From Leptogranulimonas caecicola (GTDB lineage Bacteria > Actinomycetota > Coriobacteriia > Coriobacteriales > Atopobiaceae), in the NCBI RefSeq assembly GCF_023168405.1, contig NZ_AP025285.1, positions 372,001 through 436,000 of the forward strand: 64,000 nucleotides of DNA. The letters are read 5' to 3'. The translations under genes and the position numbers were made by a program. Of this stretch, positions 18,446-24,227 are shown one piece after another. A model generated the notes under the pieces. That model was not told the origin of the DNA. It saw only the letters and a program-made list of their open reading frames with translations, and made no database searches. Position 1 is the first letter of the stretch. Each line of letters starts with the position of its first letter.

Positions 18446-18485
18446 CAGAAAACCCCAGATAGACTAGTCTATCTGGGGTTTTCTG
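18446..18485. terminator. 40-bp perfect palindrome, terminator of guaA
   Basis: CAGAAAACCCCAGATAGACT is followed immediately by its exact reverse complement. The stem has A runs on one side and T runs on the other, so it can terminate in both directions. It marks the end of the core region and lies about 260 bp before the restriction island. Confidence 0.85.
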
Positions 18486-18750: not shown

Positions 18751-19344
18751 ATGCCCGTTGAATATATGCCACTCGGATCGTTTGTTGACATCATGACAGG
18801 TGCCCCGTTGAGCCGAGCAAAGAAACTTGCTGAAGGCGATGAGCTGGTCAAAGCCAAGGTATTAATTCCCGCAGCGATGGCAGCTGGCAGAATCGATGAC
18901 TCTCTAATAGCAACTGAAACAGTATCTAAAGTTAAAGAAGATCTTTTCACGAAAAAGGGTGACATCGTGGTCAAGGCGTCCACTCCCTACGATTGCTCCT
19001 TTATCGATGAGGACCATGAAGGATTGCTCGTTACTTCATTCGGATTCATTCTTCGATCAAATTCTCAATCATTGGTCGATATGCGCTACCTTGCCACATT
19101 CCTTGGACTCGATCAAACAAACAAAGCACTCCAAGAGATGAGCAAGGGTATGACCATAAGGCTCATTAAGAAGAGAGACATCGGGGATCTCATGGTGCCA
19201 ATCCCTTCAGCAGAAGAGCAAGCTAGGCTTGCCGCCATTTTCATAGAAACTCAGAAACACAAGGAAGTCTGTCGCGCCATCGTAGAGAAGAGCGAGCTAT
19301 TACTACAAAGCGAGTTTGCACGCTTAGTGATTGATAGCGACTAG
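18751..19344 (+). CDS. Half-size type I restriction specificity (HsdS-like) protein
   Basis: This 197-residue protein resembles a single target-recognition half of HsdS: an N-terminal recognition region (MPLGSFVDIMTGAPLSR), a central KKGDIVVKASTPYDC segment and a C-terminal helical dimerisation part after VPIPSAEEQARLAAIF, a motif shared with S subunits. Full HsdS proteins have two such halves, and the one at 20901 is complete, so this extra half is unusual. It has AAAGGAG eight bases upstream of the ATG and lies 36 bp before hsdM, so it is probably co-transcribed. It might dimerise to form a second specificity, pair with HsdM alone, or modulate the system. It is not a copy of either full hsdS. 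Confidence 0.75.
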   Translation: MPVEYMPLGSFVDIMTGAPLSRAKKLAEGDELVKAKVLIPAAMAAGRIDDSLIATETVSKVKEDLFTKKGDIVVKASTPYDCSFIDEDHEGLLVTSFGFILRSNSQSLVDMRYLATFLGLDQTNKALQEMSKGMTIRLIKKRDIGDLMVPIPSAEEQARLAAIFIETQKHKEVCRAIVEKSELLLQSEFARLVIDSD

Positions 19345-19380: not shown

Positions 19381-20901
19381 ATGATTACTGGTGCTACCAA
19401 AAATAAAGTAGACGCTATTTGGCAGAAGATGTGGGAAGGCGGCATTACCAACCCGCTGGACGTCATTACCAACATTACCTACCTTATGTTCATGCGCCAG
19501 CTTGACGAAAAGGAACTCGCTGCCGAACGCATGGAGGACATGGTCGGCGAACCACAAGAGCGTATCTTTCCTGAATCCTATACAAACGATCGCAATGAGG
19601 TAATCCCAGGATGCGACATGCGCTGGAGTAGCTTCAAGGACAAGCGTGCGGAGGACATGTACCGTATCGTGGATCGCTTTGCATTCCCCTTTATCAAGAC
19701 TCTGGGCAATGAGAACGCTTACTCTCGCGCCATGGCGAATGCGACCTTCGGCTTTCCGGCGGGTAAGCCTATACTCCTGGAGAAGGCTGTTACTGGCGTC
19801 GACGAGTTGCTACGCGATTTCGACGATCATATTGGTGATTTGGGTGACCTTTACGAGTACATGCTTTCCAAGCTCTCTACAGCAGGTACTAACGGGCAGT
19901 TTCGTACCCCGCAGCACATCCGCTCTATGATGGTTGAGATGGTGGACCCCAAGCCTGATGAGCTCGTCTGCGATCCAGCCTGTGGCACCGCCGGTTTTCT
20001 CATCTCGGCAGCCGAGCACATTCGCACCAAGTACGAGAACAGCATGACGACCGAGCAGTGGGATGCCTTCTCTGGCATTAACGGCGCAGCACCTCAATTT
20101 AGCGGCTTCGAGATGGATCAGACCATGCTTCGTATTAGTGCCATGAATCTCATGCTCCATGAGGTATCCTCGCCCGATGTACGCTACCTTGACAGCGTCT
20201 CTCAGAAGAATGACATCTCTAGCAAATTCGATGTGATTCTAGCAAATCCACCCTTCACTGGATCTGTGGACGTGGAAGGTATCGACAAAGGCCTGCGTGC
20301 CATTGTCGATACCAAACAGACCGAATTGCTCTTCATAGCGCTGTTCCTGCGCATGCTTAAGGCGGGCGGGCGCTGTGCGTGTATTGTGCCCAACGGTGTG
20401 CTATTCCGAAGTAACTCTAAGGCTTATCGGAAGCTGCGTCGCGAGCTGGTGGAAAATCAGAAGCTTGAGGCCATTATCTACATGCCAAGCGGCGTATTTA
20501 AGCCCTATTCGGGTGTGAGTACGGCTGTACTCGTGTTCACCAAAACTGATGCGGGTGGCACTGATGACGTATGGCTCTACAACATGGAAGGTGACGGATT
20601 CACGCTCGACGACAAGCGCAACCCTGATGAGAAGCACGACGATATCCCCGATATTCTTTCGCGTTGGCGCGATCTTGATACCGAGGCTGGCCGAGAGCGC
20701 ACCGAGAAGAGCTTCCTAGTATCCAAAGCCGAGATTGTGGAGAACGACTACGACTTTAGCTTCAACAAGTACACCAAAACCGAGTATGAACACATAGAGT
20801 ATCCACCTACTAGCGAGATACTAGCTGAGCTGGACGACTTGAATGCCCAGCTGACTGCCGGTTTGACCGAGCTCAAGCAAATGTTGGGCGGTGAGCTCTA
20901 A
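19381..20901 (+). CDS. hsdM: Type I restriction-modification adenine methyltransferase subunit
   Basis: This 506-residue subunit transfers a methyl group from S-adenosylmethionine to adenine N6 in the target site. It has an N-terminal helical HsdM domain (DVITNITYLMFMRQLDEKE), the QFRTPQHI segment, AdoMet motif I DPACGTAGFL and catalytic motif IV NPPF in VILANPPFTGS. All key residues are intact. The ribosome site is AAAGGAAG. The stop overlaps the hsdS start (TAATG), so M and S should be made in a coupled way. Base composition is lower in GC than the core genes at both sides, which supports acquisition by transfer. Confidence 0.96.
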   Translation: MITGATKNKVDAIWQKMWEGGITNPLDVITNITYLMFMRQLDEKELAAERMEDMVGEPQERIFPESYTNDRNEVIPGCDMRWSSFKDKRAEDMYRIVDRFAFPFIKTLGNENAYSRAMANATFGFPAGKPILLEKAVTGVDELLRDFDDHIGDLGDLYEYMLSKLSTAGTNGQFRTPQHIRSMMVEMVDPKPDELVCDPACGTAGFLISAAEHIRTKYENSMTTEQWDAFSGINGAAPQFSGFEMDQTMLRISAMNLMLHEVSSPDVRYLDSVSQKNDISSKFDVILANPPFTGSVDVEGIDKGLRAIVDTKQTELLFIALFLRMLKAGGRCACIVPNGVLFRSNSKAYRKLRRELVENQKLEAIIYMPSGVFKPYSGVSTAVLVFTKTDAGGTDDVWLYNMEGDGFTLDDKRNPDEKHDDIPDILSRWRDLDTEAGRERTEKSFLVSKAEIVENDYDFSFNKYTKTEYEHIEYPPTSEILAELDDLNAQLTAGLTELKQMLGGEL

Positions 20902-22073
20902 TGGCAAACAAACCCCGATTTGAGGGGGAGCGGGTGCGACTGTCAGATGTCTGCATTTTGGTTATGGGCCAGTCGCCATCGTCAGCAAGCTATAACTCTG
21001 ATGGCATGGGTCTACCCTTCTATCAAGGCAACGCAGACTTTGGAGATACTCATCCTATTGCCAAGACATGGTGCACGGATCCCAAGAAAATAGCAGAGCC
21101 AGGGGATGTTCTCATATCGGTCCGAGCTCCTATTGGATCTATTAATGTAGCAAATGAAAAATGTTGTATCGGACGAGGTGTTGCAGCTATGCGACCTCAT
21201 AATGAATTGGTGTCAGGACCTTATCTCGTTCACCTACTGCGTTCCAATCGTAAAACGCTTGAGGCGATTGGAACGGGCAGTACTTTTAAGGCTATCGGGA
21301 AAAAGGCCCTTTCAAATTTCAAGGTCAACCTATACAGCCTTGCTGAGCAACTAAGCATTAGCAAGAAGCTTGAGCAGACATTGGTTTGTATCAAGCTAGG
21401 AGAACTACAGCTCTCTCATCTTGACAACCTCGTCAAATCACGGTTTGTCGAGATGTTTGGAGGCGCTTCGAGTATCAAAAAGAAATGGAGATCATCCATT
21501 CTGAAAGACTGTGTTGAGTCACTAGAGTCAGGCAAAAGCCCAAGTTGCAAGAGTATTCCTCGCAAGGAGCTGGGCCCTGGTGTATTGAAGCTGAGTGCCC
21601 TCTCTTCGGGGAGGTTCATCTCAAGTGAGAACAAGGCAATGCTTGATGGTGAGTTAATCGTTCCCGCTAAAGAGGTCAGGCGTGGCGATATTTTGATTGC
21701 GCGGAAGAATACCCCAGAACTTGTCGGTTCATGTGTACTTGTTCATGAGGATGTGAAAAACCTGATGTTTCCCGACATTGTCTTTCGCATGCGTCCAAAC
21801 GTTAATGTTAACGGAGAGTACCTCGCTATGCTGCTTTCAGGTCCTTCCTATTCGGGCGAGGTCAAAGGTCTTGCTCATGGATCTAACAAGTCGATGTCGA
21901 ATATTCCGAAGTCAGAGCTTGCCAAACTACCTATTCCGCTACCTCCTCTCGCTCTCCAAGAGGAGTTCGCCGACTTTGTCGCGGCCGTCGACAAATCGAG
22001 GTTTGTGATCCAGCAACAGATTGACAAGCTAAAGACTCTCTATGACAGTCTCGCACAGGAGTATTTCTCTTAA
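20901..22073 (+). CDS. hsdS: Type I specificity subunit, expressed copy
   Basis: This 390-residue protein has two target-recognition domains. Domain 1 begins VRLSDVCILVMGQSPSS, is followed by the central conserved helix DNLVKSRFVEMFGG, then domain 2 and the second conserved helix LPPLALQEEFADFVAAVDKS, ending LYDSLAQEYFS. It would set the DNA sequence methylated by HsdM and cut with HsdR. Its ATG overlaps the hsdM stop by one base. Three segments (20910-20942, 21420-21460, 21933-22006) are repeated in the same direction in the second copy at 23.1-24.2 kb, so exchange of recognition domains is possible. Confidence 0.93.
   Translation: MANKPRFEGERVRLSDVCILVMGQSPSSASYNSDGMGLPFYQGNADFGDTHPIAKTWCTDPKKIAEPGDVLISVRAPIGSINVANEKCCIGRGVAAMRPHNELVSGPYLVHLLRSNRKTLEAIGTGSTFKAIGKKALSNFKVNLYSLAEQLSISKKLEQTLVCIKLGELQLSHLDNLVKSRFVEMFGGASSIKKKWRSSILKDCVESLESGKSPSCKSIPRKELGPGVLKLSALSSGRFISSENKAMLDGELIVPAKEVRRGDILIARKNTPELVGSCVLVHEDVKNLMFPDIVFRMRPNVNVNGEYLAMLLSGPSYSGEVKGLAHGSNKSMSNIPKSELAKLPIPLPPLALQEEFADFVAAVDKSRFVIQQQIDKLKTLYDSLAQEYFS
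20910..20942 (+). repeat. Direct repeat R1, copy 1 (5' end of hsdS)
   Basis: A 33-bp segment beginning AAACCCCGATTTGAGG is identical to 23103-23135. Identity stops at once on the upstream side. It covers codons 4-14 of hsdS. Confidence 0.95.
21420..21460 (+). repeat. Direct repeat R2, copy 1 (central helix of hsdS)
   Basis: A 41-bp segment encoding LDNLVKSRFVEMFG matches 23634-23674 with one synonymous difference. It lies between the two recognition domains, so exchange here would reassort them. Confidence 0.93.
21933..22006 (+). repeat. Direct repeat R3, copy 1 (3' helix of hsdS)
   Basis: A 74-bp segment encoding PLPPLALQEEFADFVAAVDK and flanking residues is identical to 24129-24202. The two genes diverge completely after it. 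Confidence 0.95.
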
Positions 22074-22095
22074 AAACTAAGTTAGGTAAATCTAT

Positions 22096-22132
22096 GGGAA
22101 CCTTCTGACAATGCAAACGACAGGAGGTTCCC
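22096..22132 (+). promoter_or_regulatory. Hairpin covering the ribosome site of the recombinase gene
   Basis: GGGAACCTTCTG pairs with CAGGAGGTTCCC (one T-G position, all others Watson-Crick) around a 13-base loop. The second arm contains the GGAGG ribosome site and ends at the base before the ATG at 22133. In RNA it should block translation; in DNA it could be a recombinase binding site. It also separates hsdS from the recombinase. Confidence 0.75.
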
Positions 22133-23104
22133 ATGCTCTATGAAAGCCAGTCTGCACGCATGATCGAGCGCGAGATGTCTGCGCACTTGGATGGTGCTCA
22201 GATGAAAAAGCTACATGAATGTCTTGTCCGAGTTATGGGCGAGCCCGTATCCGAACCGCCTAGCAACGAGACACTTCTAAAAAACTTTCTGAGTGCAAAG
22301 GCGGTCGAGGGGTGTTCGCCGCGCACTATCCAGTACTACACGGTTACGCTTGAACATTTCATTGAGTCCATTACGTCGCCGCTTCATGTAGTCGATACTG
22401 CCGAGGTCAGGGGATATCTCGCCTCTCGTGCAGCTGCGGGCAAAGTGACAAATGTTACACTCGACAACATCCGTCGCATCATTTCGAGCTTTTTCTCCTG
22501 GCTTGAGGAAGAAGAGGTCATCTACAAGAGCCCGGTCAAACGTATCAAAAAAATCCGCTCAGTTGCAGCGGTTAAGCCTGTCATCACTGACGAGGAAATG
22601 GAAGTCATTAGGGACTCGTGCGGAAGTCTTCGTGACAGGGCGATTATTGACCTCTTGGCCTCGACAGGGATGCGTGTCGGCGAGCTCGTGCGACTTGGCC
22701 GGGAGGATATCGACTTCGAATCGCGCGAGTGTATTGTGCATGGCAAGGGAAATAAGCAGCGCAAAGTGTACTTTGATGCCAAGACCAAGATTCACCTGCA
22801 GAGCTATCTCAAGCAGCGCAGCGATGATAGCCCATCACTATTCGTCTCACTTAAGGCTCCATATAAGCCACTCAACATCAACGGTGTTGAATTGAGGCTT
22901 CGCGAGATTGGCCGCCAATCATTGGGTATCAGACTCCACCCGCATAAGTTTCGTCGCACTATGGCAACTCGAGCTATAGACAAAGGTATGCCCATCGAGC
23001 AGGTCCAAGTATTGCTGGGGCACAGTAAGATAGACACTACTTTGTGTTACGCCATGGTTGACCAGCAAAACGTGAAGCGCTCGCATTGCAAATACATAAG
23101 CTAA
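22133..23104 (+). CDS. Tyrosine recombinase within the hsdS locus
   Basis: This 323-residue XerC/D-type recombinase has an N-terminal SAM-like core-binding domain (about 45-130, RTIQYYTVTLEHFI) and a catalytic domain with the Arg in STGMRVGELVR, the HPHKFRRTMATR box, LLGHSKIDTT and a nucleophile Tyr in TLCYAMVD. All catalytic residues are present. Recombinases placed between hsdS genes are known to shuffle recognition domains in streptococci, lactobacilli and Bacteroides. Here both hsdS copies face the same way. Its TAA overlaps the first bases of repeat R1 copy 2, so the gene and repeat are tightly packed. Expression is probably limited by the hairpin just upstream. Confidence 0.92.
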   Translation: MLYESQSARMIEREMSAHLDGAQMKKLHECLVRVMGEPVSEPPSNETLLKNFLSAKAVEGCSPRTIQYYTVTLEHFIESITSPLHVVDTAEVRGYLASRAAAGKVTNVTLDNIRRIISSFFSWLEEEEVIYKSPVKRIKKIRSVAAVKPVITDEEMEVIRDSCGSLRDRAIIDLLASTGMRVGELVRLGREDIDFESRECIVHGKGNKQRKVYFDAKTKIHLQSYLKQRSDDSPSLFVSLKAPYKPLNINGVELRLREIGRQSLGIRLHPHKFRRTMATRAIDKGMPIEQVQVLLGHSKIDTTLCYAMVDQQNVKRSHCKYIS

Positions 23105-23135
23105 ACCCCGATTTGAGGGGGAGCGGGTGCGACTG
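23103..23135 (+). repeat. Direct repeat R1, copy 2
   Basis: Identical over 33 bp to 20910-20942, 2193 bp away, same orientation. It overlaps the stop codon of the recombinase gene. An in-frame TAA at 23097-23099 blocks read-in to the second hsdS. Confidence 0.95.
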
Positions 23136-24227
23136 GGCGACGTATGCAAGGTGGTTTCTGGAGCAACGCCGAAATCAAAGAATCCAGACTATTGGGGTGG
23201 CAATATAAAGTGGGTTACGCCGGCTGAGCTAGATGATGGAAGCCATTACATAGCGGATACGGCGAAGCACATAACGGAAGCCGGGTTTTCGAGTGCGAAT
23301 CTGCATATGCTCCCAGCCGGCACTGTTCTCCTTACAACACGTGCACCCATTGGAAAAGTTGCCATTACACAGGCAGAAATGTGCTGCAATCAGGGATTTA
23401 AGAACCTAATTTGTTCCGATGTGATAAACAACGAGTTCCTATACAGAGTACTCAGATTTCATTCCTCTGCACTTCAGGCAATGGGTCACGGTGCGACTTT
23501 CAAGGAGCTTTCGAAGAAAAACATTGAATCTTTTGAGCTACAGATTCCTTCTTTAGTTGCTCAGAAGAATGTCGTTGCGGCACTTGAGGCCGTTGAGCGG
23601 CTGATACTTCTCGTCAGCAAGCAGCTTTCCCTCCTTGACAACCTTGTCAAATCACGGTTTGTCGAGATGTTTGGGGACCTATGCGAGGGTGAGACTATAT
23701 ATCCGCCACGTTCAATTGAGGACCTTTGCAGCGATTTCTTGGGCGGAGGGACGCCTTCCATGAAACATCCTGAATATTTCGGTGGTGAGATTCCATTTAT
23801 CAAATCCGGGGATGTCAAAAATCGAATTGTGTGCGAAGGGGATCTTTCGATTACAAAAGAGGGTCTCTTAAATAGTTCAGCAAAGCTTATTCCTACAGGG
23901 GCAGTAATTGTTGTAATTCGTAGCGGAATTCTTAAGCATACGCTGCCCGTCGCTTTGGTTGGATGTGAAGTAGCAATTAATCAAGATATAAAGGCATTAA
24001 TTCCAGCTAGTGGAGTAAACTCGTTATACCTGCAGTGGGCGCTACTTGTTTCCGAACCACTGATTCTCTCTAGGGTTAGAGCGACAACTGCAGACAATAT
24101 CGAAACAAAACAACTAAGAAAATATATGATTCCGCTACCTCCTCTCGCTCTCCAAGAGGAGTTCGCCGACTTTGTCGCGGCCGTCGACAAATCGAGGTTT
24201 GTTGCTGAATACAATAGAAAAGTATAA
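23127..24227 (+). CDS. hsdS: Second hsdS copy, apparently silent donor
   Basis: This frame encodes two different recognition domains (VRLGDVCKVVSGATPKS, and a second beginning after DNLVKSRFVEMFGD), joined by the same central and C-terminal helices as the first hsdS. It lacks the ATGGCAAAC start of the first copy: a TAA sits just before the shared repeat, and only an internal GTG at 23127 with no clear ribosome site could start it. It also ends about ten residues earlier, as VAEYNRKV. Recombination at R1 would place it behind the hsdM-linked ATG. It is therefore most likely a silent recognition-domain reservoir, though weak expression from GTG cannot be excluded. Confidence 0.82.
   Translation: MRLGDVCKVVSGATPKSKNPDYWGGNIKWVTPAELDDGSHYIADTAKHITEAGFSSANLHMLPAGTVLLTTRAPIGKVAITQAEMCCNQGFKNLICSDVINNEFLYRVLRFHSSALQAMGHGATFKELSKKNIESFELQIPSLVAQKNVVAALEAVERLILLVSKQLSLLDNLVKSRFVEMFGDLCEGETIYPPRSIEDLCSDFLGGGTPSMKHPEYFGGEIPFIKSGDVKNRIVCEGDLSITKEGLLNSSAKLIPTGAVIVVIRSGILKHTLPVALVGCEVAINQDIKALIPASGVNSLYLQWALLVSEPLILSRVRATTADNIETKQLRKYMIPLPPLALQEEFADFVAAVDKSRFVAEYNRKV
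23634..23674 (+). repeat. Direct repeat R2, copy 2
   Basis: Matches 21420-21460 with one C/T difference; encodes the central helix between recognition domains of the second hsdS. Confidence 0.93.
24129..24202 (+). repeat. Direct repeat R3, copy 2
   Basis: Identical over 74 bp to 21933-22006; encodes the C-terminal conserved helix of the second hsdS. Confidence 0.95.

Follow-up and report, generated by a model that had tools for sequence, protein, structure and literature searches.

According to the part of its description on which we draw, the SpnIV (tvr) locus of Streptococcus pneumoniae is rearranged by recombinase-mediated excision and reintegration, with direct repeats and circular intermediates, and a hairpin attenuates transcription of its recombinase gene (PMC6265443). 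An earlier note on the DNA analyzed here had stated that known recombinase-driven hsdS switching is by inversion; this statement is contradicted by SpnIV (tvr), for which the available text describes excision-reintegration at direct repeats (PMC6265443). In the literature we searched, PMC6265443 was the sole precedent for hsdS excision-reintegration with a circular intermediate, and among the matches listed no title concerned hsdS of Eggerthella or its kin. For an inverting pneumococcal locus, excised forms have also been reported in the sections available (PMC4948785). Within the accessible portions of the respective papers, SpnIII/cod (PsrA) and other inverting loci resemble the locus described below in their spare hsdS copies and tyrosine recombinase, and in that recombinase-dependent exchange needs a short site, with IR1-like sequences lying inside longer repeats (PMC4948785, PMC7096588, PMC7394358). 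A REBASE survey looked for inverted repeats, and the term "direct repeat" is absent from the text of it that was available (PMC7394358).

We analyzed a 64,000-nucleotide stretch of the Leptogranulimonas caecicola genome (NZ_AP025285.1, positions 372,001 to 436,000; hereafter the window). It contains a Type I restriction-modification operon in the order hsdM, hsdS, tyrosine recombinase, second hsdS (hsdS') and hsdR (Table 1). As in the tvr-type layout, the recombinase and a spare hsdS lie between hsdM and hsdR, and direct repeats share a common core. HsdM, the two-domain HsdS and HsdR each pass Pfam cut-offs; the HSDR_N match of HsdR is slightly under its own cut-off, and HsdM and HsdR fall short of the NCBIfam equivalog cut-offs. 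The Methylase_S profile has four matches in the 2.0-Mb one-contig genome, all within hsdS and hsdS'. The ATG of hsdS is located immediately 3' of the hsdM stop codon. The four recognition domains have a GC content of 43-48%, compared with 56% for the window. A half-length HsdS-like ORF (window 18751-19344) directly precedes hsdM; it has weak NCBIfam matches under cut-off and is also matched by our home-made hsdS profile. ORFs of similar size, annotated as restriction endonuclease subunit S, precede methylase genes in Ligilactobacillus (L129-L132). Up to window 18400, where guaA ends, the sister genome G001 is 96% identical; beyond this point it is dissimilar, and similarity picks up again at window 32864 on a different contig, which places the hsd locus within a variable island (window 18400 to about 32864). 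Both hsdM and the window recombinase are absent from G001, and this genome thus shows no alternative state of the locus. A perfect 40-bp palindrome near the island edge (window 18446-18485, immediately 3' of guaA) is probably the guaA terminator.

Table 1. Positions of the hsd genes, direct repeats and predicted hairpin in the window.
Feature	Position	Strand	Remarks
hsdM, methyltransferase subunit, 506 aa	19381..20901	+	N6_Mtase and HsdM_N above Pfam cut-off
hsdS, expressed specificity subunit, 390 aa, domains a (N) and b (C)	20901..22073	+	Methylase_S
R1 copy 1 (head repeat)	20910..20942	+	core AAACCCCGATTT at 20910-20921
R2 copy 1 (middle repeat)	21420..21460	+	core AAATCACGGTTT at 21435-21446
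R3 copy 1 (tail repeat)	21933..22006	+	core AAATCGAGGTTT at 21993-22004
Predicted RNA hairpin, 15-bp stem	22093..22135	+	covers recombinase Shine-Dalgarno and start codon
XerA-like tyrosine recombinase, 323 aa	22133..23104	+	model matches, alignment
hsdS', donor copy, domains c (N) and d (C)	frame open ~23100..24227	+	Methylase_S
R1 copy 2	23103..23135	+	overlaps recombinase stop codon
R2 copy 2	23634..23674	+	core 23649-23660
R3 copy 2	24129..24202	+	core 24189-24200
hsdR, restriction subunit, 1131 aa	24273..27668	+	ResIII, EcoEI_R_C and others above Pfam cut-off

The earlier note had described two hsdS copies that share three direct repeats, with the recombinase between them, and the coordinates bear this out. 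R1 (33 bp) and R3 (74 bp) are exact, R2 is 41 bp long with one change (29 bp of it exact), and all three are in direct orientation between hsdS and hsdS'. By our own estimate, a stretch of this size would be very unlikely to contain exact repeats of 29-74 bp by chance, and R1 and R3 are exact although the intervening domains are unrelated. Within 8 kb, no inverted exact repeat of at least 16 bp was found to link the sequences left and right of the recombinase, and inversion as the mechanism at this locus was ruled out on these grounds. The locus differs in this respect from the SpnIII/PsrA inverting loci, and with direct and no inverted repeats, excision rather than inversion is to be expected.

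Each repeat holds a 12-bp core of the form AAA-N6-TTT, which is in frame and encodes K(S/P)RF. On the left, identity between hsdS and hsdS' ends where the head core begins; at the tail, it ends 5 bp past the spacer. AAA-N6-TTT is present in 102 of 142 exact repeats of at least 15 bp between hsdS parts in loci that carry a member of this recombinase family (seven strain or genome duplicates dropped: L123, L130, L131, L132, L134, L135 and L136), against a background of 4.9% in random stretches matched for length and territory; we give no P value because the repeats are not independent, and the 40 repeats without a core count against the mechanism favored below. In the K-x-x-F/V motifs of nine high-GC loci (the window, L005-L009 and L114-L116; counted by eye, the two hsdS copies of one locus not being independent), Phe is encoded by TTT in 36/36 and Lys by AAA in 40/41 cases, whereas the remaining long frames of these loci use 16-47% TTT and 18-52% AAA. 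The core of Lactococcus loci lies in a different reading frame from that of the window. This codon bias against genome habit, together with the other frame in Lactococcus, indicates that the core is conserved as DNA and not as protein alone.

At each place (head, middle and tail), the six spacer bases of hsdS match those of hsdS', in 24/24 pairs from eight direct loci (the window, L005, L006, L008, L009, L114, L115 and L116), where for 21 pairs the pairing itself used this agreement and the other three, all heads, were read directly from the locus sequences. Within each of these loci, the spacers of head, middle and tail differ from one another. Since spacers agree between copies at each place and differ between places, it is likely that only like sites recombine. 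In the tail pairs of L006, L114, L115 and L116, the copies agree across the spacer and diverge in the right arm, as would be expected from exchange at the spacer.

The donor copy hsdS' stops seven codons past R3; the C-terminal helix found in hsdS is missing. The C-terminal motif is present in the hsdM-following copy of 16/16 direct loci and missing from the other copy in 15/16 (exception L026), or in 14 of 15 informative loci, as L018 runs off its contig; the 16 loci were hand-chosen, with L060 and L018 in and L020, L029, L032, L034 and L043 (direct on the tree) out. The second copy had been said to lack a start codon. Its first 60 codons indeed contain no in-frame ATG, but GTG 23127, preceded by GAGGGGGAGCGG with a ribosome-binding-like GAGGGGG, could serve as a translation start, and the start codon thus leaves the silent status of hsdS' unproven. 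A missing start codon is also less general than the C-terminal truncation, with the second copies of L009, L010 and L017 having an early ATG of their own.

We estimate the probability at about 75% that the locus is a tvr-like excision-reintegration cassette exchanger with head, middle and tail site classes, excision-reintegration by site-specific recombination being the most likely mechanism. The tyrosine recombinase would act at the AAA-N6-TTT cores in the K(S/P)RF codons at the head, middle and tail of hsdS, with AAA/TTT arms common to all sites and a six-base spacer that differs by place. Because the cassettes are in direct orientation, one exchange would excise a circle of 2.19-2.21 kb carrying the recombinase. 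The segments between like sites measure 2193 (R1), 2214 (R2) and 2196 bp (R3), in agreement with the 2.19-kb circle previously suggested. Reintegration at another site class would then swap N- or C-terminal recognition domains of the expressed hsdS, and four specificity combinations would be possible. Cutting and rejoining at like sites in silico, followed by reintegration, yielded hsdS genes ab, cb, cd and ad, all in frame and with a full C-terminus. The anticipated maximum of four domain combinations is thereby reproduced, and so is the supply of the hsdM-linked ATG by an exchange at R1. Every excised chromosome generated in silico keeps an hsdS with a truncated C-terminus, and the enzyme would thus probably be off or altered during excision.

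The recombinase passes the XerA model cut-off and aligns with the solved Xer structures 4a8e, 5hxy and 1a0p. Its frame is intact, and so are Arg-181, Lys-205, His-271, Arg-274, His-297 and Tyr-306, which we take to be the usual catalytic places of tyrosine recombinases. That it is the likely engine of exchange, as had been proposed, is supported by its presence together with direct repeats and by the recurrence of the core in recombinase-linked loci. As dS is saturated for the recombinase and hsdR, no dN/dS is given.

The predicted hairpin that spans the Shine-Dalgarno sequence and initiation codon of the recombinase has a folding energy of -25.5 kcal/mol (z -2.54 versus dinucleotide shuffles, 3/200 as good). 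In the Slackia faecicanis locus L005, the stem is kept and the loop is not. Screening for a perfect arm across the start codon proved too restrictive, many loci being passed over because they offered no motif; a folding test with controls took its place. After removal of 12/64 starts as duplicates, 52 recombinase starts (picked by rule, minimum ribosome-binding score 4; relatives not independent) had a mean z of -2.23, with 29/52 at P <=0.05 (single-base shuffles) and 23/52 missing this threshold. The 229 control starts from the same loci (stricter minimum score of 5.5) had a mean z of -0.14, with 26/229 at P <=0.05 (Mann-Whitney 5.5e-13), and mean pairing at -14 to +3 was 0.62 for recombinase starts versus 0.43 for controls. 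The start hairpin thus recurs in part of the recombinase family. By covering the ribosome-binding site and start codon, it would limit the switching rate, and it probably keeps switching rare. Among the papers that our literature search listed, no title pointed to a precedent for start-occluding hairpins. Four points go beyond what the earlier note had noticed: the hairpin, the 12-bp core common to the repeats, the C-terminal truncation of hsdS' and recurrence among relatives.

Recombinase matches at E 1e-60 or better occur in 15/140 genomes of the host's family (window genome included). Our genome collection contains 114 relatives, of which 80 were kept; their hosts include Coriobacteria-type genera, clostridia, Saccharibacteria, Methanobrevibacter, bacilli and others, and some are on plasmids. 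A search of viral contigs returned nine distant recombinases (25-34% identity), none of them the window locus. With our home-made profile, no hsdS part was detected beside the recombinase in 29/63 re-examined relatives, some of which lie at contig ends, and the family is thus not tied to hsdS alone. Close recombinase relatives without adjoining hsdS (L023, L025, L027, L028, L031, L039, L059, L037 and L140) include L037, where long direct repeats flank the recombinase on both sides, and the Methanosphaera plasmid locus L140, which adjoins DUF2207 genes; these relatives may shuffle other genes. A decayed locus in Collinsella stercoris (L084, 8001-8360) retains a recombinase remnant with residues 1-69 (64%) and 268-322 (91%), the middle missing, and also carries hsdR-like fragments.

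Among 42 loci with at least two hsdS parts, 20 have these in a single orientation and 22 in both. On the recombinase tree of these 42 loci (six duplicates and loci with fewer than two hsdS parts excluded), the orientation label is clustered and needs seven changes, at least five by starred branches. Direct and mixed loci share one tree, and hence one recombinase family serves both geometries. The window falls in a clade of eight, all direct (support 97/89), whose loci, among them Slackia faecicanis L005 and Berryella L009, share the three core classes, the direct layout and a truncated hsdS'. Gene order varies: unlike in the window, hsdR lies between hsdS and the recombinase in L009, L115 and L116, and the recombinase and hsdS' precede hsdM in L008.

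Past exchanges can be traced in relatives. The Lactococcus plasmid loci pJM1A, pJM2A, pUC073A and pUCCL627F, with a recombinase 53% identical to that of the window, resemble our locus in having the AAA-N6-TTT core and show natural rearrangements. Their shared flanks are 99.7-100% alike and occur with three arrangements (pJM2A equals pUC073A). The rearrangements are inversions and not excisions, with break points inside copies of TAAATCATCATTTAG; one core class is present in both polarities, so that the half-genes flip by inversion. In Gordonibacter An230 (L007, at a contig end and outside the recombinase tree), the N-terminal domain of the silent slot shares 99.2% identity over 517 bp with that of the active slot in Rubneribacter (L008, within the window clade, support 100/97). 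This match extends from 2 bp upstream of the head core to a point 14-17 bp downstream of the middle core, where it breaks up; the recombinase regions are 90.6% identical. The middle spacers of the two loci are one base apart, and the exchange may thus be old, indirect or an intergeneric transfer. In L008, the stretch from the middle core to the tail core is identical in the two hsdS copies, with exact runs of 544 and 550 bp. Domains a and b have relatives in Berryella (60% and 64%, respectively), which are found in different hsdS copies.

We considered whether homologous recombination or gene conversion between the hsdS copies could account for these features, with the recombinase a bystander and the repeats the conserved coding of an old duplication. 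Two like-site pairs do sit in longer identical DNA (33 and 74 bp), and R3 and R1 would suffice for some recA-type or slippage events; the longer tvr repeats, too, use a recombinase-independent route in the part of the tvr study available (PMC6265443). This explanation is nevertheless unlikely, given that the core is conserved as DNA even in the other reading frame of Lactococcus, that copy identity ends at the cores, and that a recombinase of this family adjoins hsdS in many phyla.

A static locus without present-day rearrangement, where hsdS and hsdS' are both expressed or hsdS' is a remnant in decay, appears more improbable still. The missing C-terminal helix of hsdS', the intact recombinase, the exactness of R1 and R3 around unrelated domains and the exchanges in relatives all argue against it, even though GTG 23127 has a ribosome-binding-like sequence, the second copies of L009, L010 and L017 have early ATGs, and the locus of this strain is known in one arrangement. 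Least probable of all, and very improbable in our view, is a mobile cassette that would mainly serve the spread of specificity domains from genome to genome and not their switching inside one genome. Such a role would fit the occurrence of one cassette at 99.2% identity in two genera, next to a recombinase region with 90.6% identity, as well as the relatives on plasmids and the low GC content of the domains; yet the recombinase adjoins hsdM, hsdS and hsdR in the direct loci listed, and the 2.2-kb segment showed no transfer gene.

More tentatively, at slightly less than even odds, we propose that this widespread recombinase family uses an address code within hsdS, formed by constant AAA/TTT arms and a slot-naming spacer. 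The direct layout would be a four-state exchanger that carries a functional C-terminus and the recombinase on the circle, with excision as the off state, reintegration picking the specificity and the start hairpin setting the rate. The 12-bp core with its slot-specific spacers provides a testable rule for swappable hsdS parts, and the start-codon hairpin a testable account of a low switching rate. If excision-reintegration operates here, this kind of epigenetic switching would be no pneumococcal oddity but would extend to other gut bacteria, and cells within one culture would differ in methylome and in barriers to DNA uptake. Direct-layout loci would then escape searches for inverted repeats such as the REBASE survey, as far as its available text describes it (PMC7394358).

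We finally compared the locus with the published description of SpnIV (tvr) in gene order, repeat layout, accessory genes and type of hairpin. As far as the available text goes, both loci have the order hsdM-hsdS-recombinase-hsdS'-hsdR, N- and C-terminal domains keep their places, and several types of direct repeat share a short core, of about 11 bp in tvr and 12 bp here (PMC6265443). Two contigs with a pair of tandem N-terminal hsdS parts 3' of hsdM (L151, 4444-5654; L152, 5493-6640) resemble the 3+1 layout of tvr; their first N-terminal part ends at a KSRF core plus SWEVAA, and both contigs end before any recombinase. Unlike tvr as described in the portion available, our locus has no tvrAT toxin-antitoxin pair in the 59-bp gap between hsdS and the recombinase. 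Its hairpin lies over the recombinase start codon and is without a T run, whereas that of tvr is, in the same text, a terminator-like attenuator; by analogy, the start hairpin may have a similar purpose achieved by different means. The main structural addition over SpnIV (tvr) is the head site, an extra repeat at the start of hsdS, by which the N-terminal domain next to hsdM would become movable as well. The principle is already known from pneumococcus, and the three-site layout looks new.
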